From an uncultured Kiritimatiellota bacterium (GTDB lineage Bacteria; Verrucomicrobiota; Kiritimatiellia; RFP12; DVOR01), in the NCBI GenBank assembly GCA_944391085.1, contig CALXSE010000002.1, forward strand, positions 74,450 through 138,449: a DNA stretch of 64,000 nucleotides, given 5' to 3'. Below the pieces are notes generated by a model. It had not been told where the DNA came from. It was given only the letters and a program-made list of their open reading frames with translations, and made no database searches. A program made the translations under genes and the position numbers. Every line of letters starts with the position of its first letter. Within the stretch, counting starts at the first letter, position 1. Below are positions 3,909 to 47,727 of the stretch, piece after piece.

Positions 3909-6056
3909 ATGCCCCACCCCGACGACCCCCAAGACGAGCTCTTCGCCTCCCTCGACGAATCCCACGAATCTGAATCCGCCCCCGCAGACGGCGCCGTCCC
4001 CGCCGAGGACGCCGCCAAGGCCGATGCCGCCCCGGATATCCGCGACCGAGGCCCCTTCGGCCGGCTGATGGACGACAACTTCCTCAAGTTCGCCGCTTAT
4101 TCAATCTGCGACCGCGCCCTCCCCACCGTCGAGGACGGCCTCAAGCCCGTCCAGCGCCGCATCCTCCACGCCATGTGGGAAAAGGACGACGGCCGCTTCT
4201 CCAAGGTCGCCGGCGTCGTCGGCAACACCATGCACTACCACCCGCATGGCGACGCCGCCATCAAAGACGCCATCGTCACCCTTGCCAATAAACGTTACCT
4301 CATCCAAGGCCAGGGCAACTTCGGCAACATCCTTACCGGCGACGAGGCCGCCGCAGGCCGTTACATTGAGTGCCGCCTCACCAAGCTCGCCCGCGAGCAG
4401 CTCTTCTCCCCGAAAATCACCGAATACGTCCCCAGCTACGACGGCCGCAACAAAGAGCCCGTCCTGCTCCCCGCCAAAATCCCCCTCTGCCTCATGCTCG
4501 GCGTCGACGGTATCGCCGTCGGCCTCTCCACCGCCGTCCTTCCCCACAACTTCATCGAGCTTCTTCAGGCCGAGATCGCCATCCTCCAGAAGAAGCCCTG
4601 CCCCACCCTGTTCCCGGACTTCGTCACCGGCGGCGAGATGGACGCCTCGGACTATGACGACGGCCGCGGCTCCGTCAAGGTGCGCGCCCGCATCGAGGAG
4701 CGCAAGGGCGAGAAGAACAAGCTCTTCGTCACCTCCGTCCCCTACGGCGTCACCACCGACCGCCTCGCCGAGTCCATCGAGAAGGCCATCAAATCCAAGC
4801 GCCTCCCCATCAGGCACATCGACAACTTCACCGCCGAGGCCGTCGAGATCGAGCTCACCCTCAACCCCGGCTCCGACCCCGAGAAGGTGCGCAAGGCCCT
4901 TTACGCCTTTACCGACTGCGAGCGTCGCATCCCCAGCCGCATCGTCGTCCTCTCCCAAAACCGCCCCTGCGAGATGACCGTCTCCGAGGTCCTCTCCCGC
5001 CACGCCGAGCTTCTCCAAGACATCTTCCGCCGCGAGTTCCAGGTCCGTCTCCGCGAAATCGACGAGCTGATCCTTCGTAAGACCCTCGAGGCCCTCTTCA
5101 TCGAAAAGCGCATCTATAAGCGCATCGAAGGCGTCAAAACCGCCGAGGCCGTCTCCGCCGAGGTCCGCAAAGGCTTCGAGCCTTACGCCCAGCTCCTTGA
5201 GCACCCGCTCACCGACGACGAGATCGACCACCTCCTCAAAATCCCCATCCGCCGCATCTCCCTCTACGACATCAACAAGCACAACGACGAGCTCAACGCC
5301 CTCCGCGCCGAGTACGCCCAAATCAACGACGACCTCGCCCATCTTTCCCGCTACGCCGTCAAATACCTCAAAGCCCTCATCAAGGAATACGCCTCCCAGT
5401 ATCCCCGTCTGACCCAGATCGCCGACGGGTTCCAGCAAATCGACGAGCGCGCCCTCACCTCCACCGAGCTCACCCTTCGCCTTTCCGAGGACGGCTACCT
5501 TGGGTACGACATCAAGCAGGGCCAAACCCTTTTCCCCTGTTCCAGCCTTGACAAGCTCTATGTCCTCTGGAGCGATGGCCGTTACCGCTTTATCCCCCCG
5601 CCCGACAAGTTTCTCGTCGACGCCACCTACGCCCCCGGCCATGCCTGGCTCGACGCCCTTCGCCCACGCGCCCCCATCCGCTTCTTCGACGTTGGCCTTT
5701 ACGCCCGCGACGACGTCTTCACCTGCGTCTACTACGAGCCCATCTACGGCTTCACCTACTTCAAGCGCTTCACCTGGGGCGGCATGATCATGAACAAGGA
5801 CTACGCCCTCATCCCCGAGGGCGCCACCATCCTCCTCTTCTGCAAAGGCACCCCAGAGGCCATCTATGTCAAATACAAATACATGAAGAACCAGCGCATC
5901 ACCCAGCAGGTCTTCTCCCCCGCCGAGGCCCGCCTCACCGCCGCCTCATCCAAAGGCATCCAGATGACCCCCAAGCAAATCGAGCGCATCTCCACCAAAC
6001 AGGAGGCCTGGTGGGTTCCCTCCGAAGGTTCCACCAAAGGCGCCCTGTTCACCTGA
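3909..6056 (+). CDS. parC: DNA topoisomerase IV / gyrase subunit A-like protein
   Basis: Type IIA topoisomerase cleavage subunit. With its ATPase partner (ParE/GyrB, not in this window) it passes duplex DNA through a double-strand break to decatenate or relax DNA. The catalytic tyrosine is Y152 in AAAGRYIECRL. The winged-helix core is recognisable from DGLKPVQRRILHAM (near 77-90), YHPHGDAAI (110-118) and QGQGNFGN (133-140). The first about 45 residues are an acidic, Ala/Glu-rich extension. The C-terminal region (from about 500) lacks an obvious GyrA-box and differs from the classic beta-pinwheel, favouring a ParC-like assignment. The ATG lies 12 bases after the transporter gene stop, so the genes are probably co-transcribed. 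Confidence 0.85.
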   Translation: MPHPDDPQDELFASLDESHESESAPADGAVPAEDAAKADAAPDIRDRGPFGRLMDDNFLKFAAYSICDRALPTVEDGLKPVQRRILHAMWEKDDGRFSKVAGVVGNTMHYHPHGDAAIKDAIVTLANKRYLIQGQGNFGNILTGDEAAAGRYIECRLTKLAREQLFSPKITEYVPSYDGRNKEPVLLPAKIPLCLMLGVDGIAVGLSTAVLPHNFIELLQAEIAILQKKPCPTLFPDFVTGGEMDASDYDDGRGSVKVRARIEERKGEKNKLFVTSVPYGVTTDRLAESIEKAIKSKRLPIRHIDNFTAEAVEIELTLNPGSDPEKVRKALYAFTDCERRIPSRIVVLSQNRPCEMTVSEVLSRHAELLQDIFRREFQVRLREIDELILRKTLEALFIEKRIYKRIEGVKTAEAVSAEVRKGFEPYAQLLEHPLTDDEIDHLLKIPIRRISLYDINKHNDELNALRAEYAQINDDLAHLSRYAVKYLKALIKEYASQYPRLTQIADGFQQIDERALTSTELTLRLSEDGYLGYDIKQGQTLFPCSSLDKLYVLWSDGRYRFIPPPDKFLVDATYAPGHAWLDALRPRAPIRFFDVGLYARDDVFTCVYYEPIYGFTYFKRFTWGGMIMNKDYALIPEGATILLFCKGTPEAIYVKYKYMKNQRITQQVFSPAEARLTAASSKGIQMTPKQIERISTKQEAWWVPSEGSTKGALFT

Positions 6057-25714: not shown

Positions 25715-26839
25715 CTACCCTTCGATGGCGGCGCGCAGCCAGGCAAGCGATTCCTCACGGAAGGCCCCGAGCCGCTCCGCATAGCCGCCGGCGGGCTGAG
25801 CGAAACGCGCGGGGTCGCCCACGTGGAAATCGTCGGGGATGGGGACAGGGACGGCGTGGCGTTCGGCGCCGACGCGCCGCAGGAGGGCGCGCAGGCGGGA
25901 ATCCTTGCGCGGGTCGGCCTCGGTGAGGGCGATGAAGGGCTTGCCGCTGTGGAGGGAGAAGACGGCGCCGTGGAAGGAGGAGGTCACGATAAAGGACGCG
26001 TTGAGGAAGAGGTCGACGAACTCATAGGGCGAGGCGGATTTGTTCACCGTGGCGCGCGGCTTGCCCAAGTCCTGCCTGCGGCCGTTGAGATAGACGACGT
26101 CGAGGTCGAGCGCGCGGGCCACTTCGTCGATGACGCGGTCGGCCTGCGGGTAGGGATTGACCATGTAGGCCATGATGTAGACGAGGATATAGGGGCGCTT
26201 GGGACGGCGCGTGGCCTTTTGCGCCATCGCGGCCCACTGGGCGCGCTCAAGGAGGAGCGTCGGGTCGCAGCACCAGGCGGCGGTCTGGCCGGTGAGGTCG
26301 CGGATGAGCGCGACGCCGCTTTCCTCGCGCACCGAAAGCGCGTCGTAATCCAGAAGCGCCTCACGGTAACGCGGCCGCAGCGCCTCCGGCAGCGCGGAGA
26401 CGGCGAAGCTCGAGGCATAGGCGATCTTGCGCACGGCGGGGCGTCTATCCGCGGGGACGAAGGCGAGGAAGTAGGCCGGGTCCGCGCCGCTCCACTGCGG
26501 GTTGAAGGTCTGGTCGGATCCCGTCGCGTAGACATCCGCCGCGGGCGGGTCGGCGGCCAGCTCCGCGAAGGTGGCGTAGGGGCGCGTCAGGTCGAGCTCC
26601 GTGCGCAGGAAGTCGTCGTAGGCGCGGTCGCGGCGCCAATAGACCACGCGCCCAAGGAGATACCGCGCGAGGGCCGCCGGGCTGCGCGGGAACGTCCGTT
26701 CGCCGGCCTGCGCCACATAGTCGACGGTCAGGCAGCGGTGCCCCAACAGGCGCGTGACGGCCGTGTGCAGGGCGTAGGCCTGAAGCGCGGAGCCATAGTT
26801 GATGGTGCGGAACATGGTGATCTGGCAGACGGTTTTCAT
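25715..26839 (-). CDS. Polysaccharide pyruvyl transferase family protein
   Basis: A 374-residue protein of the polysaccharide pyruvyl transferase family (CsaB/WcaK/EpsI-like), which adds ketal pyruvate to surface glycans using phosphoenolpyruvate. Diagnostic stretches are the N-terminal FRTINYGSALQAYAL (near 10-24), DVYATGSDQTFNPQW (near 101-115), the ALSVREESG block (near 169-177) and VTSSFHGAVFSLHSGKPFI (near 292-310). ATG 26839 has AAAGGAG before it. It follows the Fe-S protein gene by 11 bases, a pairing common in exopolysaccharide clusters. The frame is open upstream to 27064, but that part overlaps the neighbour. Confidence 0.85.
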   Translation of the reverse strand: MKTVCQITMFRTINYGSALQAYALHTAVTRLLGHRCLTVDYVAQAGERTFPRSPAALARYLLGRVVYWRRDRAYDDFLRTELDLTRPYATFAELAADPPAADVYATGSDQTFNPQWSGADPAYFLAFVPADRRPAVRKIAYASSFAVSALPEALRPRYREALLDYDALSVREESGVALIRDLTGQTAAWCCDPTLLLERAQWAAMAQKATRRPKRPYILVYIMAYMVNPYPQADRVIDEVARALDLDVVYLNGRRQDLGKPRATVNKSASPYEFVDLFLNASFIVTSSFHGAVFSLHSGKPFIALTEADPRKDSRLRALLRRVGAERHAVPVPIPDDFHVGDPARFAQPAGGYAERLGAFREESLAWLRAAIEG

Positions 26840-26850
26840 GGCATCTCCTT

Positions 26851-28011
26851 TCAGCGGCGGACAATCCTGCACAGGCGGGCCCAGGCGCACCCGATGAGCG
26901 ACCAGCCATGCGCCAGGGTGAAGCCGGCCGGCCAATCGAGCAGGCGGATGAACGTGGCCCGTCCCCACGCGGGCGGTTCGGCCTTGGGCGTCTTCGCCTC
27001 GACCTCCGCGTTCTCGGCGGGCGTGAGCGGCTCGGTGACGCAGTGCGCGGCGGCCTTGGTCCACACCTCAAGGCCGCGCGCGGTGAGGGCCTCCACGCGG
27101 CTCACGCCCGTGTCGTTCGCCTGGTAACGCTCACCCCAGAAATCGCGCACGCGGATGTCCGCGCCGCTGTGCGTCCCCACGAAGGGGCACGCGTAACACG
27201 TCAGATTCTGCGCCGTACAGCGAAGGAAATGGCGAAGAAAAGGTTCGTTTCCCGAGGCATATCCCCTATAAAATGTTTGTCTATCCTCGGAAAGGGTCAA
27301 TTCATAGGCGTCCTGCCAGCCACGGGTTTTGCCGCGCCACGAGGCCTCGACCCGGCGTGGATCCCGCCCTTTGGCCGCCCGGCGCAGGAAGGCCGCCCAG
27401 AGCTTTTGGGAGGGCACGCCGTGGCAGACGAAGTCCACCAGGACGAACCGCTCCTCGACGCCGCGCGTTTGGATAAGGCGGCGGAAGGCGGCGATTTGGC
27501 AGGGCGTGCCCACGACAAGCCACTTGCCGTCACCCGCCAGGATGTAGCGAAAGGCGGGGACGGTCAGGCTTTGGATGTATTTTGACCCCCGTGCCGGCAC
27601 GAAGGCCTCCGGCGTCTCCGCCAGAAAGTGCTCCGCGCGTTGCCGCTCGGGCACATACCGCACGCCGCAGAAGCCGTAGCCCTCCCCCGCCAGGGCCGCG
27701 ACGATGGCGCCGACCGCCCCGCCGGAGGAACTCGCGCGAAGGGAATCAGCGTCCTTCAGCCACGCCGCGTCCCCGCGCAGCACGCGCTTATGCAACGTCT
27801 CCGGCGGGATGGGCGAACGGGTCGGGCACAGGCGCACGCAGAGCCCGCACCCCACGCACGCGGCCGCGTCCACCCGCGGCACCCAGAACCCCTCGCGCGA
27901 CTGCGCCATCTCGACGCACCGCCTCGGGCAAACCACGGCACACACACCACACCCGTAGCAAGGGTTCGTCCCCGCCACGGTCTCTCTTCCATCCACTTTC
28001 TCTCGGGCCAT
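26851..28011 (-). CDS. Coenzyme F420 hydrogenase/dehydrogenase beta-subunit-like iron-sulfur protein
   Basis: A 386-residue protein with two N-terminal 4Fe-4S ferredoxin motifs (CYGCGVCAVVCP near 18-29 and CVGCGLCVRLCP near 51-62). They are followed by the FrhB N- and C-terminal domains; WLVVGTPCQIAAFRRL and LVDFVCHGVPS are typical. In bacteria such proteins often sit next to pyruvyl transferases in surface-polysaccharide loci, where their reaction is not settled; a redox role is inferred. ATG 28011 is preceded by AGGAAAGG at a long spacing. The 5' leader is the structured RNA described at 28012-28207. Confidence 0.82.
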   Translation of the reverse strand: MAREKVDGRETVAGTNPCYGCGVCAVVCPRRCVEMAQSREGFWVPRVDAAACVGCGLCVRLCPTRSPIPPETLHKRVLRGDAAWLKDADSLRASSSGGAVGAIVAALAGEGYGFCGVRYVPERQRAEHFLAETPEAFVPARGSKYIQSLTVPAFRYILAGDGKWLVVGTPCQIAAFRRLIQTRGVEERFVLVDFVCHGVPSQKLWAAFLRRAAKGRDPRRVEASWRGKTRGWQDAYELTLSEDRQTFYRGYASGNEPFLRHFLRCTAQNLTCYACPFVGTHSGADIRVRDFWGERYQANDTGVSRVEALTARGLEVWTKAAAHCVTEPLTPAENAEVEAKTPKAEPPAWGRATFIRLLDWPAGFTLAHGWSLIGCAWARLCRIVRR

Positions 28012-28207
28012 AAAAAGCACGCCTTTCCTGCTTCTATCTGTAACGAGGCCCTGAGAAAGCCCTACACCGGATAGCAGCGAAAAGGCGCGCCAGAATGGCG
28101 CACCTTGCTGGACTTTTGCCCGGTGCAATGAAATTTCTCAGGTTTCGTTACAGGCAACTGTCGCGCAAAGCGCAGTAAAACGATGGCTCATCCCATCGCG
28201 TGCCCAC
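28012..28207 (-). ncRNA. Structured 5' leader, copy A (candidate cis-regulatory RNA)
   Basis: Read on the minus strand from about 28207. Hairpin 1 pairs CGATGG (28198-28193) with CCATCG (28186-28181), loop GATGAG. Hairpin 2 lies near 28176-28157. A long arm follows: CTGTAACGA (28153-28145) pairs with TCGTTACAG (28046-28038), and CCTGAGAAA (28142-28134) with TTTCTCAGG (28058-28050), leaving an AA/GCC internal loop. Inside, CACCGG (28125-28120) pairs CCGGTG (28070-28065) and GGTGCGCC (28104-28097) pairs GGCGCGCC (28091-28084). A closing helix could form between GCACGC (28203-28198) and GCGTGC (28022-28017), between Shine-Dalgarno and ATG. The same architecture with compensating changes occurs at 47529-47727. 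No known riboswitch class was recognised. Confidence 0.75.
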
Positions 28208-28216
28208 ATGATAGCA
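28208..28216 (-). promoter_or_regulatory. Extended -10 promoter of leader A
   Basis: TGCTATCAT on the minus strand sits immediately before the conserved leader sequence (GTGGGCACGCG). It is matched by TGTTATCAT at the same place before leader B. This sets the likely transcription start near 28201-28203, at the 5' end of the proposed closing helix. Confidence 0.6.
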
Positions 28217-44376: not shown

Positions 44377-46110
44377 TTACTCTTCAGACACCTGGATATC
44401 GGCGATGGATTCGCGCGGGATGTTGCGGTTATGCCTCAGGATCAGGTAACGCCCATGTGGGGTCGGCAACACATAGCCGGTGAGCGGTGAGCCTTGCTGC
44501 ATCTCCTGTTCCGGAGAGATCAACGAAAAGCTCGCCCATCCCTCACGAAGGATACGCTTGCGAAGCCGTGCGACGACGGAGAGCGGCGGCGGGACGTCCG
44601 CATATGTCGGTTTGCCGCTCACACGCGTGCCGGGCCTCAGCATGGACCCCTCCGGCAACGGCAGTGCCAGCACATCAGCATCCGCCCTGGCGTACCACCC
44701 GCAGGGCAACCGGTTCTGCGGCACGCACAGCGTATCCCTCAGATAAAGCCCCTCCCAGACGGCAGGCTCGGCCAAGATGAAAAAGGGTTTCCCGTAAAAC
44801 CGCGCGACGCCCGGATTCGTCCACGGCTCCCCCATCCCCCACCCGACCAACGTCCGCAACTCCCACGAGCGGTCAAGCCAAGATTCCGCGCACACCTTCC
44901 GCACCTCCGGGGACACCGCCACATGCTGCGGATTGTCCCGCCACGCGCGAATGACGGCGTCCGCCGCGCGAGACATGGCCATATTGTTCGCCGCCGTGAC
45001 ACCCACCACGGCCACCGCCAAAAGCGAAACCGCCAACGTCACCGGCACGCGCCACCGCATCCATGCCCACGGCGCCAGGTGCCGGGCAAGCACCACCGCC
45101 ATCGCCAACGCGCACACGGACGCCGGCCACGCCGTCCTGTCCCCCCCAGCCGAAAGCGCACACGTGACGACGACCACGAGCCAGCCGACAAGGAGCACCC
45201 ACCATGCCCGCTCGGGCAACGAAAAGCGCCTGCGCCAGACGACGACTGCCACGGTGCCCGCCGTGACGGCAAACAACAGCGGGTTGGCCATGCCGCAACG
45301 CAAATACGCCATCCCCTTCCGCGCGATCGAATAAAGCAACTGCGCGTCAGGCGCGAAAAACGCGGCGCCCCCGGCACGGGTCAACGTCCCCGGCGCGAAG
45401 ACCACGGCCAAGGCCCCCAATCCCAGCCCAACCGTCAGAAGCAGCCTCCCGTTTACGGCGAAACGTCCCTTCGCGATCTCGCGAAGCCAGTAAACCGTCA
45501 ACGCCAGGCACGCCGACACGGACAGCAACTCATGCCCACCCGCCGCGACGAACCCCAACGGCAGCAACGCCGCCATCCACGCATTGCGCCACGCAAAGAC
45601 GCTCTCCCCTAATCTCGGGCGCACAAACAAAAGCGCCGCGGCAACCATCCACGCCATCGGCCACAGATAATTGCACGCACCGGAAAGCCAGAGGCAGGCA
45701 TCCTGCGTCAAGGCGAAGGCGAACGCCGCCGCAAAGACCGCCGGCCGCCAGCCGCGCGGCACCGCCAGCAAACGGCAAAAAGCCGCCCACAACGCCACCC
45801 ACACCGACGCATTGAACGCCGCGAAAAGCCAGTGCGGCATCCCGGCCGTCAGACGCAGCAGGAAAGCCGCCGCGAACCGTCCATTTTCGTGGTTCCAATG
45901 AGTCCAGACCAGCTCAAGCAGATTCCACGCCGCGCCCGGCACCGAGACGAACGTGCGCAACGTTGGGAACTGCCCCGGCTCAAGCGGCGCTTGCCGATAA
46001 TACCCAAACACGTTGCCAAAATCATCGGCATAAATCGGCGTCAGGAACGTGAGCGCAAAAAACGCGAGCCAGGCCAGCAGATGCGGCACCACAGGATACA
46101 GGCGCTTCAT
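44377..46110 (-). CDS. Polytopic membrane protein (DUF6056/GT-C-like), third gene of gtr-like operon
   Basis: A 577-residue membrane protein with about ten or more hydrophobic segments in the first 380 residues and a soluble C-terminal third. The first loop contains YADDFGN (near 28-34) and WTHWNHENGRFAA (near 69-81), an acidic loop arrangement seen in DUF6056 and in GT-C glycosyltransferases using lipid-linked sugars. It is the last gene after GtrA- and GtrB-like proteins and begins directly at the GtrB stop (TAA then ATG). By analogy with gtrABC serotype-conversion operons it would be the specific transferase moving the sugar onto a surface glycan; this is inferred from position. Confidence 0.65.
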   Translation of the reverse strand: MKRLYPVVPHLLAWLAFFALTFLTPIYADDFGNVFGYYRQAPLEPGQFPTLRTFVSVPGAAWNLLELVWTHWNHENGRFAAAFLLRLTAGMPHWLFAAFNASVWVALWAAFCRLLAVPRGWRPAVFAAAFAFALTQDACLWLSGACNYLWPMAWMVAAALLFVRPRLGESVFAWRNAWMAALLPLGFVAAGGHELLSVSACLALTVYWLREIAKGRFAVNGRLLLTVGLGLGALAVVFAPGTLTRAGGAAFFAPDAQLLYSIARKGMAYLRCGMANPLLFAVTAGTVAVVVWRRRFSLPERAWWVLLVGWLVVVVTCALSAGGDRTAWPASVCALAMAVVLARHLAPWAWMRWRVPVTLAVSLLAVAVVGVTAANNMAMSRAADAVIRAWRDNPQHVAVSPEVRKVCAESWLDRSWELRTLVGWGMGEPWTNPGVARFYGKPFFILAEPAVWEGLYLRDTLCVPQNRLPCGWYARADADVLALPLPEGSMLRPGTRVSGKPTYADVPPPLSVVARLRKRILREGWASFSLISPEQEMQQGSPLTGYVLPTPHGRYLILRHNRNIPRESIADIQVSEE

Positions 46111-47025
46111 TTACTTTTCCTCCTTGACGAGATAAAGGGGACGATGTTTGCTCTCCAAATAGGTCTTGGCAAGGTAAGTTCCCAAGATGCCGATGACAAA
46201 AAGTTGAAAGCCTCCCAAAAAGAGGATGAGGCAGATTTGAGTGGGATATCCCGAGACCGGTTCACCCACGACAAGCGTCTTGAAGATGACATACACCAGA
46301 TAAACCAGTGCCGCCACACAGGCCGTTATCCCTGAGACGGAGGCCAGTTGCAGGGGAGCCGTAGAGAAAGCGGAGAGGCCTTGGACACTGTAGCGCACCA
46401 GTCCCCAAAAAGACCATTTCGTCTCACCTGCCGCACGCGCGACGTTCTCAAACTCCAACCACTTTGTCCGGAAGCCGACCCAGGCATAAATACCCTTGGT
46501 GAAGCGATTGACCTCCGGCAAAGCAAGCACCGCCTCCACGACCTGCCGCTTCATCATGCGATAATCCGTCTCCCCGCCGCGCATACGCACCTCGGAGAAT
46601 CGGTTAAGCACGCCGTAAAAGGCCTTGGCGCATTGGCTTCGCAACCATGGCTCGCCCTTGCGGTTCGTGCGTCGCGCCGCCACACAATCCCACTCGCCGA
46701 ATTGCAGCAAGCGCACCATTTCGGGCAACAGCGCCACAGGGTGCTGCAAATCCACGTCCAACGTCACCACAAGATCGCCCGTCGTCTTGCGCAAACCGGC
46801 CAAAAGGGCGGACTCTTTGCCAAAGTTGCGGGAGAAGGAGACATAGTGAACGGTTGCATCCTCTCGTGCCAACTCTCGCAATGCCGCCAATGTCCCATCC
46901 GACGAGCCATCGTCCACAAAGATGAACTCCAGCCCAAGAGGCAGGCCAAGAGCCTGAACCGCCTCCCAAAAACGGCGTACACACAGCGATTCGTTAAAAC
47001 ACGGCACAACCAACGACAACGTCAT
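46111..47025 (-). CDS. GtrB-like family 2 glycosyltransferase (polyprenyl-phosphate sugar synthase)
   Basis: A 304-residue GT2 enzyme. The catalytic core is LSLVVPCFNES (near 3-13), VDDGSSDGT (near 38-46) and TLDVDLQHP (the DxD-type metal site, near 88-96). Two C-terminal transmembrane segments follow (ASVSGITACVAALVYLVYVIF and ICLILFLGGFQLFVIGILGTYLA). This is the layout of GtrB/ArnC/DPM1-type enzymes that load a sugar onto undecaprenyl phosphate. ATG 47025 has AAGGAGG and overlaps the GtrA stop (ATGA). It is the second gene of the three-gene operon. Confidence 0.88.
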   Translation of the reverse strand: MTLSLVVPCFNESLCVRRFWEAVQALGLPLGLEFIFVDDGSSDGTLAALRELAREDATVHYVSFSRNFGKESALLAGLRKTTGDLVVTLDVDLQHPVALLPEMVRLLQFGEWDCVAARRTNRKGEPWLRSQCAKAFYGVLNRFSEVRMRGGETDYRMMKRQVVEAVLALPEVNRFTKGIYAWVGFRTKWLEFENVARAAGETKWSFWGLVRYSVQGLSAFSTAPLQLASVSGITACVAALVYLVYVIFKTLVVGEPVSGYPTQICLILFLGGFQLFVIGILGTYLAKTYLESKHRPLYLVKEEK

Positions 47026-47528
47026 AACGCCTCCTTCCGATCGCGAAAGATCAACCATTTGCTGATTAAGTAGTTGAGAACCACAACAATCACCCCAACC
47101 ACAACCTTCATCGCCAGCTCATCCCACCGAGCCACGTCCACCGTCACCCAAATAAGCGCCACATCCGCCATCCCCGTGGCAAGACGCGACCCAGTGAAGG
47201 CCATCAGCTCCTTCCACAACTTCCACACGCCTATCCCTTGCTGGGCATGGAAGACCCACACCCGATTAGTCCACCAGGCGAACACCACCGAGGGCCACCA
47301 CGCCAACGTGTTTGACAACCATCCCGAAAGGCCCAACACATGGAAGCAGACAAGGAACAGCACAACGTTCAGGACCGTCGTGCATCCTCCAAAAAAGCAA
47401 TAAAGCCCGATTGGCGAAAAGCAGAACGTCAAGCCTCGCCGCCATGTTTTCCGAAACAACCTTGCCCCACGTCCACCCCATGTTTGGGACGGCGCCTCCG
47501 ACGACACACAACCACTTTCCACGGCCAT
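47022..47528 (-). CDS. GtrA-like flippase family protein
   Basis: A 168-residue membrane protein with four hydrophobic segments and the GtrA signature (LYCFFGGCTTVLNVVLFLVCF near 37-57, WWPSVVFAWWTNRVWVF near 74-90, LNYLISKWLIFRD at the end). GtrA proteins are proposed to flip undecaprenyl-phosphate-glucose across the inner membrane. The start is ATG 47528, preceded at 12 bases by AAAGGA. It is the first gene after leader RNA copy B. The frame is open far upstream (to 48758), but that region is the antisense of kdsD and the DtxR gene. Confidence 0.85.
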   Translation of the reverse strand: MAVESGCVSSEAPSQTWGGRGARLFRKTWRRGLTFCFSPIGLYCFFGGCTTVLNVVLFLVCFHVLGLSGWLSNTLAWWPSVVFAWWTNRVWVFHAQQGIGVWKLWKELMAFTGSRLATGMADVALIWVTVDVARWDELAMKVVVGVIVVVLNYLISKWLIFRDRKEAL

Positions 47529-47727
47529 AAAAAGCACGCTTCCTTTCACGTATTCCAAACGAGGCCCTAGGATGTGCCCTGAACGACTACGTGCAAGAAA
47601 GCGCGCCAATACCGGCGCGCCCCGCTCAACACGTTGCTCGTTCATGAAGTTTCCTAGGTTTCGTTTGGAGCAACCTGTTGCGCAAAAGCGCAAACATTGC
47701 AAAGGCTCTTCCCTTCGCGTGCCCACC
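47529..47727 (-). ncRNA. Structured 5' leader, copy B (candidate cis-regulatory RNA)
   Basis: Homolog of the leader at 28012-28207, read on the minus strand. Hairpin 1: GCGAAGG with CCTTTGC, loop GAAGAG. Hairpin 2: TTGCGC (47692-47687) with GCGCAA (47682-47677). Long arm: TCCAAACGA (47669-47661) with TCGTTTGGA (47562-47554), AA/GCC internal loop, CCTAGGA (47658-47652) with TCCTAGG (47572-47566). Inside: GAACGA (47643-47638) with TCGTTC (47586-47581), and GCGCGCC (47620-47614) with GGCGCGC (47607-47601). Closing helix: GCACGC (47722-47717) with GCGTGC (47539-47534). Arms differ from copy A yet pair, while the loop, GGGCCTCGTT and GCGTGCTTTTTATGGCC are kept. The stretch 47737-47860 shows no other feature. 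Confidence 0.75.

Follow-up and report, generated by a model that had tools for sequence, protein, structure and literature searches.

On the minus strand of the 64,000-nucleotide stretch of DNA from an uncultured Kiritimatiellota bacterium that we analyzed (hereafter, the window), approximately 195 nt running from position ~28205 to 28012 form a 5′ leader ahead of a 4Fe-4S/FrhB gene, and the question raised by this locus is what kind of RNA this leader is and how it might act on the genes behind it. An earlier note had described a structured leader RNA with paired base changes between two copies, which it could assign to no known class, and had named an Fe-S/pyruvyl-transferase operon as its target. 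Our analysis found all of the helices named there and all of the listed base changes, on the minus strand and in both copies; the operon is indeed the target of the copy under study (copy A), and is one among many targets. The parts of copy A and of copy B, which share 70% identity over 276 nt, are as follows.

28208-28213, minus strand: −10 box TATCAT of copy A, from the sequence
28180-28199, minus strand: hairpin P2; 98.3% of cells paired, double-side changes in 4 of 7 pairs
28162-28174, minus strand: hairpin P3; 94.1% of cells paired, for the most part without variation within the genus, variable across phyla
28153-28158, minus strand: stem A 5′ strand GTTGCC; partner 28116-28120, double-side changes in 4 of 5 pairs
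28145-28152, minus strand: arm helix P4, 5′ strand; partner 28039-28046, every pair covaries
28134-28142, minus strand: arm helix P5, 5′ strand; together with the conserved AA at 28143-28144 ahead of it and UUUC behind it, the conserved core
28120-28125, minus strand: arm helix P6, 5′ strand; double-side changes in 6 of 6 pairs
28116-28120, minus strand: stem A 3′ strand GGCAA; covariation and cognate preference
28084-28104, minus strand: apical hairpin P7; 96.1% of cells paired
28070-28092, minus strand: P7b+J, predicted terminator 5′ strand and anti-Shine-Dalgarno; duplex energy and helix covariation
28065-28070, minus strand: arm helix P6, 3′ strand; covariation
28050-28058, minus strand: arm helix P5, 3′ strand; conserved GCC (28047-28049) next to it
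28039-28046, minus strand: arm helix P4, 3′ strand; covariation
28017-28039, minus strand: tail, predicted terminator 3′ strand, with Shine-Dalgarno AGGAAAGG
28012-28016, minus strand: U-tract 3′ of the predicted terminator stem
26851-28011, minus strand: copy A target gene, 4Fe-4S and FrhB_FdhB, 386 aa (Pfam PF04432, PF04422, PF12838); start codon ATG at 28009-28011
25715-27064 (limits of the ORF), minus strand: next gene, polysaccharide pyruvyl transferase (Pfam PF04230, 8.6e-31)
47529-47726, minus strand: whole leader, copy B; 70.7 bits with model R2 (a shorter core model, see below), same parts as copy A
47699-47718, minus strand: P2 of copy B
47678-47693, minus strand: P3 of copy B
47601-47621, minus strand: P7 of copy B
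47587-47609, minus strand: P7b+J of copy B
47534-47554, minus strand: tail of copy B
47022-47528, minus strand: copy B target gene, GtrA-type membrane protein, downstream of copy B
46111-47058 (ORF): glycosyltransferase 2, after the GtrA gene
44377-46110: DUF6056, after the GtrA gene

Covarying arm and conserved core

Copy B was borne out as a copy of the leader, but not as the only other one. BLAST with the leader against the window's genome gave 18 matching places, one of them merely promoter-like, and a covariance model built from this genome alone (R1) detects 28 in its 1.7 Mb at E < 1e-8, E-values of such short-calibrated models being rough; these counts rule out the two copies as the whole family. 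Of 27 genomic copies, 26 have a TANNNT box at the −10 place, versus 1.8% of random positions, and the transcript probably starts at the GGCAC just 3′ of this box (~28205 in copy A). With a promoter ahead in 26 of the 27 copies in the window's own genome, and a coding gene behind, the element is a cis-acting mRNA 5′ leader.

The 17 genomic copies found by BLAST were aligned, with a structure comprising P2 to P7 plus one crossing helix set by hand. In this alignment 91.5% of cells are paired and double-side changes occur in 30 of 47 pairs; shuffled alignments give 18.9 ± 2.3 double-change pairs, none of 500 shuffles reaches any of the five measures used, and pairing drops to 34-45% when the structure is slid along the columns. 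With 101 copies from two phyla, 95.1% of cells are paired, a percentage inflated by the fitting of this alignment to the model, which leans it toward the arm structure; double-side changes occur in 39 of 41 pairs (0 of 500 shuffles), and the covariation score is 0.614, compared with 0.161 for shuffled alignments and 0.06-0.10 for slid structures.

The loops beside P5 hold near-fixed letters (AA, TT, GG and CC) while the middle pairs of P5 covary, and they do so across the two phyla. Bacteroidota copies that were found by the model, without the DNA pattern described below, keep this core with new letters, P5 among the model-found copies reading CCTGAGAA/TTCTCAGG, CCTAGGAA/TTCCTAGG or ACTGGTA/TACCAGT. 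The leader therefore combines covarying helices with a conserved core, and fixed loop letters placed around a covarying stem have, to judge from the sequences, the look of a binding site. In the core columns of alignment A8 (7-8 and 199-200), near-invariant AA stands opposite CC, and UU opposite GG, on the two flanks of P5; the two adjacent, strictly kept A-C mismatches beside P5 could be protonated pairs, and pH would then be a possible signal.

Predicted terminator and competing folds

Over ~20 nt the tail, the segment between P4b and the start codon, is complementary to P7b+J, which consists of the strand on the 3′ side of the P7 loop and the junction after it. Cognate P7b+J:tail duplexes average −32.3 kcal/mol over the 17 copies, versus −24.2 ± 1.1 kcal/mol when partners are permuted, and the cognate preference is strong in each group (z = −11.2 in the window's genome, −10.1 in the order and −13.8 in Bacteroidota). 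This permutation test is uncorrected for relatedness, for which slid columns and a downstream control correct in part: counted by columns on 40 copies, the terminator helix has 95.0% of its cells paired and 64 double-change cells, compared with 13.5 after shuffling (0 of 500 shuffles), its slid versions are 38-67% paired, and pairing of P7b+J with the next 36 nt, our negative control, shows no cognate preference (p = 0.72). With a fixed frame, 91-93% of the copies in each of the three groups have a U-tract that begins 21-23 nt past P4b, versus 4-39% of control windows. The 14 nt ahead of it are GC-rich (69-78%), and their pairing with the arm strand has an energy of −17 to −20 kcal/mol, where shuffled segments reach −9 to −11 kcal/mol. 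In position, GC content, stem energy and covariation, this is the GC-rich stem directly before a U-tract that characterizes an intrinsic terminator, and we predict that the P7b+J:tail pairing acts as one. The loop of the predicted terminator, at ~40 nt, is above the usual length, and in seven copies located before PEP-CTERM genes the tail can form a short hairpin of its own, an observation that complicates the on/off assignment given below.

In the window's genus the Shine-Dalgarno sequence lies within the same tail, and about ten of the 17 aligned copies have their ATG shortly after the U-tract; the terminator helix would therefore block translation as well. The control predicted for this family is mainly transcription termination, with added Shine-Dalgarno masking where the ATG comes at once. 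The translational control suggested in the earlier note is retained in part, in the form of masking through P7b+J:tail where the ATG adjoins. The helix to which that suggestion was tied did not hold up: a closing helix GCACGC/GCGTGC, lying between Shine-Dalgarno and ATG, shows little cognate preference. Its complementarity exists, and a weak preference is seen with 27 copies (p = 0.036), but there is none with 17 copies (p = 0.25), and in one copy (L024, copy q) the tail has changed together with P7b, leaving the closing helix mismatched. We regard translational control by this helix as highly improbable.

Stem A crosses the arm, and also shows a cognate preference (z = −6.7 in the window's genome, −9.3 in the order and −11.0 in Bacteroidota). 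Its strands (PKa:PKb) were considered as a true pseudoknot formed together with the arm, a reading that we rejected on geometric grounds, since they abut both ends of an arm of ~20 bp; we read them instead as the 5′ stem of a competing state. Because the strands of stem A and of the terminator flank both ends of the arm, the geometry suggests that each of the two excludes a complete P4-P6. Computed folding of the growing RNA yields stem A ahead of P7 synthesis in 26 of the 27 own copies, and the arm in all 27 once P4b ends; at the last stage 22 copies are computed to hold the arm and 5 the terminator. At full length the arm state is calculated to be the more stable by a median of 9-14 kcal/mol, and the terminator would therefore need kinetics or a factor in order to form. 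By computation, then, the leader has an expression platform with mutually exclusive states.

The leader is likely to be a cis-acting, two-state attenuator from an unlisted family, as judged from sequence and calculated folding, and we infer that the arm corresponds to read-through and stem A with the terminator to the off state. In the mechanism that we propose, stem A would fold first on the nascent RNA and would then be displaced by the arm (P4-P5-P6-P7), leaving the tail free, so that transcription and translation go on. Where the arm is absent or undone, P7b+J would pair with the tail as an intrinsic terminator, a pairing which in the window's genus would bury the Shine-Dalgarno too. Read-through via the arm would be the default, and keeping the arm from forming would lead to shut-off; which way the signal acts is a guess. 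The least certain step is the one that sets the choice, which may be a cellular signal, in the form of a small ligand or RNA-binding protein, acting on the core in the P5 region; such a signal would place surface-glycan, sorted-surface-protein and restriction-modification operons under joint control.

Distribution and downstream genes

The earlier note had proposed a covariance-model search of related genomes, and held that its claim would fall if only two copies were found, if further copies lacked significant covariation, or if Rfam already contained the family. The search returned many further copies with very strong covariation, and Rfam holds no match. At the level of the order, copies are present in 44 of 59 genomes; in the larger phylum, under strict filters, 39 of 289 genomes contain them and the spread is patchy. 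A DNA pattern drawn from the core (GAAACCTNNRAANNTTC, 58-88 bases, TNNNAGGGCCTC) matches the GTDB genome collection in at least 115 stretches. Bacteroidota account for the majority of those listed, with Prevotella, Segatella, Xylanibacter, Muribaculaceae, Pedobacter, Sphingobacterium and Niabella among the carriers; the matches outside Bacteroidota are mainly in Kiritimatiellae, Verrucomicrobia and Lentisphaeria. Model R1 matches all 80 of the pattern loci that were retrieved, and the shorter core model, R2, identifies copies in 18 of 247 Bacteroidota genomes evenly drawn from the phylum, with up to 13 copies found per genome. The same pattern occurs in none of 2.9 million IMG/VR viral contigs, versus the at least 115 stretches in genomes, and we rejected a mobile or phage-borne repeat as an explanation.

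Some details of individual copies are recorded here as observations. Some leaders also give a weak model score on their reverse strand, as at L028:1516-1607 (plus strand) and at three comparable places; the near self-complementarity of the arm accounts for these hits, which mirror a leader and add no copies. At one locus (L011, G000:C4:2796-2964 and 4229-4401) two adjacent leaders have identical 5′ halves and different 3′ halves, which looks like partial duplication or gene conversion.

A census of 111 downstream proteins, with ORFs picked mechanically and in a dataset biased toward the pattern and toward MAGs, showed that the commonest Pfam families are PEP-CTERM (13), EcoRI-type adenine methylase (6) and N6_N4 methylase (4), with MmeI domains (3-4), Mrr restriction nuclease (3), N6 methylase (3), and glycosyltransferases, FrhB/Fer4 and TonB plug (3 each) also represented. 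PADLOC added type II, III and IIG methyltransferases to the downstream genes. For example, L101, which belongs to a set of mutually similar Prevotella-type proteins, was identified as an Eco57I-like methylase, and in the genome carrying L107 all four of the copies examined stand before DNA methyltransferases. Our upstream control of 106 proteins contained one C5 methylase among its 25 commonest families as listed, with no restriction-modification or surface bias. Since the restriction-modification bias is present downstream and absent upstream, the link belongs to the transcribed side. Protein kinases are the commonest upstream family, with 4 of 106 genes at some order-level loci.

At six loci (L010, L013, L017, L019, L021 and L022) a second conserved segment, GTGGCGCACAAGCCGAAGGGGCC ... 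CCCTTCGGC ... GGGGCGGGAAAGGAG, is located ~60-150 nt past the leader and ahead of the PEP-CTERM start; it looks like a separate RNA element, and could hide the Shine-Dalgarno of the PEP-CTERM gene. In one Niabella genome several leaders (L289, L290, L295 and related loci) stand before members of a recurring family of small proteins, IADTEQWLQQLHKE..QLPFKQHKKLLR.., which has no Pfam match.

Known systems and candidate signals

The absence of an assigned class, already stated in the earlier note, is confirmed by our searches of Rfam 15 (4227 families), which at the gathering threshold gave no match in the window and none in 12 Bacteroidota loci. At E ≤ 1 in 9 further loci there was one chance-level match, to c-di-GMP-I-GGC in L075 (E = 0.18), which lies outside the leader and far under the cut-off. 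The literature that we searched on leaders, restriction, Bacteroides and candidate RNAs, with thin coverage of subscription papers and preprints, yielded no account of this leader family. The Bacteroidetes RNAs Bacteroidales-1, Bacteroides-1, Flavo-1 and 6S-flavo (Weinberg et al. 2010, PMC2864571) are likewise structured RNAs of the same phylum, but those of them that are present in Rfam do not match the leader loci, and the words restriction and methylase do not appear in the main text of that paper. Some of the Bacteroidetes candidates among the human microbiome RNAs of Fremin and Bhatt (2021, PMC8040213) are predicted terminators; the main text of that study contains neither restriction, methyltransferase nor SusC, and it is on this main text that the leader is set apart from them, although one candidate may still overlap with it. 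The targets of the leader come from many unrelated families, and not from the single conserved one of an autogenous, ribosomal-protein-type leader.

If the leader is a two-state attenuator, what sets the switch can be divided among three readings, which are not alternatives to the attenuator itself. Just short of an even chance, in our judgment, is a riboswitch, a specific form of the attenuator in which the AA/CC and UU/GG loops around P5 would bind a small molecule or ion and so stabilize the arm (or stem A), thereby setting termination. A core kept in two phyla, covarying stems with fixed loop letters, an expression platform, and many copies per genome on diverse operons, as is also the case for second-messenger riboswitches, are all consistent with this reading, but the targets share no metabolic pathway and so suggest no ligand. 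The leaders resemble attenuating riboswitches such as c-di-GMP-I/GEMM, whose copies are also numerous within a genome and sit on surface genes, in being 5′ leaders with a conserved core, exclusive antiterminator and terminator, and many copies on surface-related operons; they differ in having no Rfam riboswitch match at the gathering score and in their restriction-modification targets, and we know of no riboswitch class with such targets. The same conserved core could instead be read by a conserved RNA-binding protein that picks the state, a second specific form of the attenuator, and a housekeeping protein of this kind could be common to both phyla. We consider this protein-dependent form on the unlikely side: no regulator genes linked to the targets were seen, and a dedicated NusG paralog (of the RfaH/UpxY/LoaP type) is unlikely, a single NusG having been found in each of the seven copy-rich genus genomes searched; the window's own genome is 89% complete. 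It is improbable that the leader is a signal-free, bistable RNA that damps or randomizes the expression of costly or phage-exposed genes; two competing folds, the five own copies computed to prefer the terminator, and targets resembling typical phase-variable genes (surface coats, SusC-type receptors and restriction enzymes) would suit such an RNA, but the core sequence is kept far past the needs of base pairing.

A processive antitermination RNA of the put/EAR kind, which would modify RNA polymerase for long, horizontally acquired operons, is suggested by the position of the leaders at the operon starts of glycan and restriction genes, and RfaH/ops or EAR targets likewise carry their elements at the operon starts of glycan-type genes. 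The leaders share with epsC/EAR and JUMPstart/ops that they are polysaccharide operon leaders favoring transcription, but each copy has its own covarying predicted terminator, the Rfam JUMPstart and epsC/EAR models give no match, the leaders also stand before PEP-CTERM and restriction genes, and the copy-rich genus genomes contain no extra, specialized NusG; we give this explanation very little weight.

Returning to the attenuator, it is possible, if doubtful, that the family is an undescribed sensor RNA common to Bacteroidota and Kiritimatiellae that switches restriction-modification together with surface coats, and so brings phage entry and the destruction of phage DNA under one RNA-sensed signal. 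Because cultured species carry the family (Niabella, Pedobacter, Segatella and Xylanibacter), the signal can be sought directly. Neither Rfam nor, as far as could be searched, the literature contains this strongly conserved RNA family, which has up to ~30 copies in a genome and spans two phyla with common rumen and gut bacteria among their members. It would be surprising for restriction-modification genes of many unrelated enzyme types to be controlled at the RNA level, and, if the attenuator reading is true, the leader would be a global RNA switch for the genes that face phages and the environment, i.e., those for glycan coats, sorted surface proteins, outer-membrane receptors and restriction-modification.
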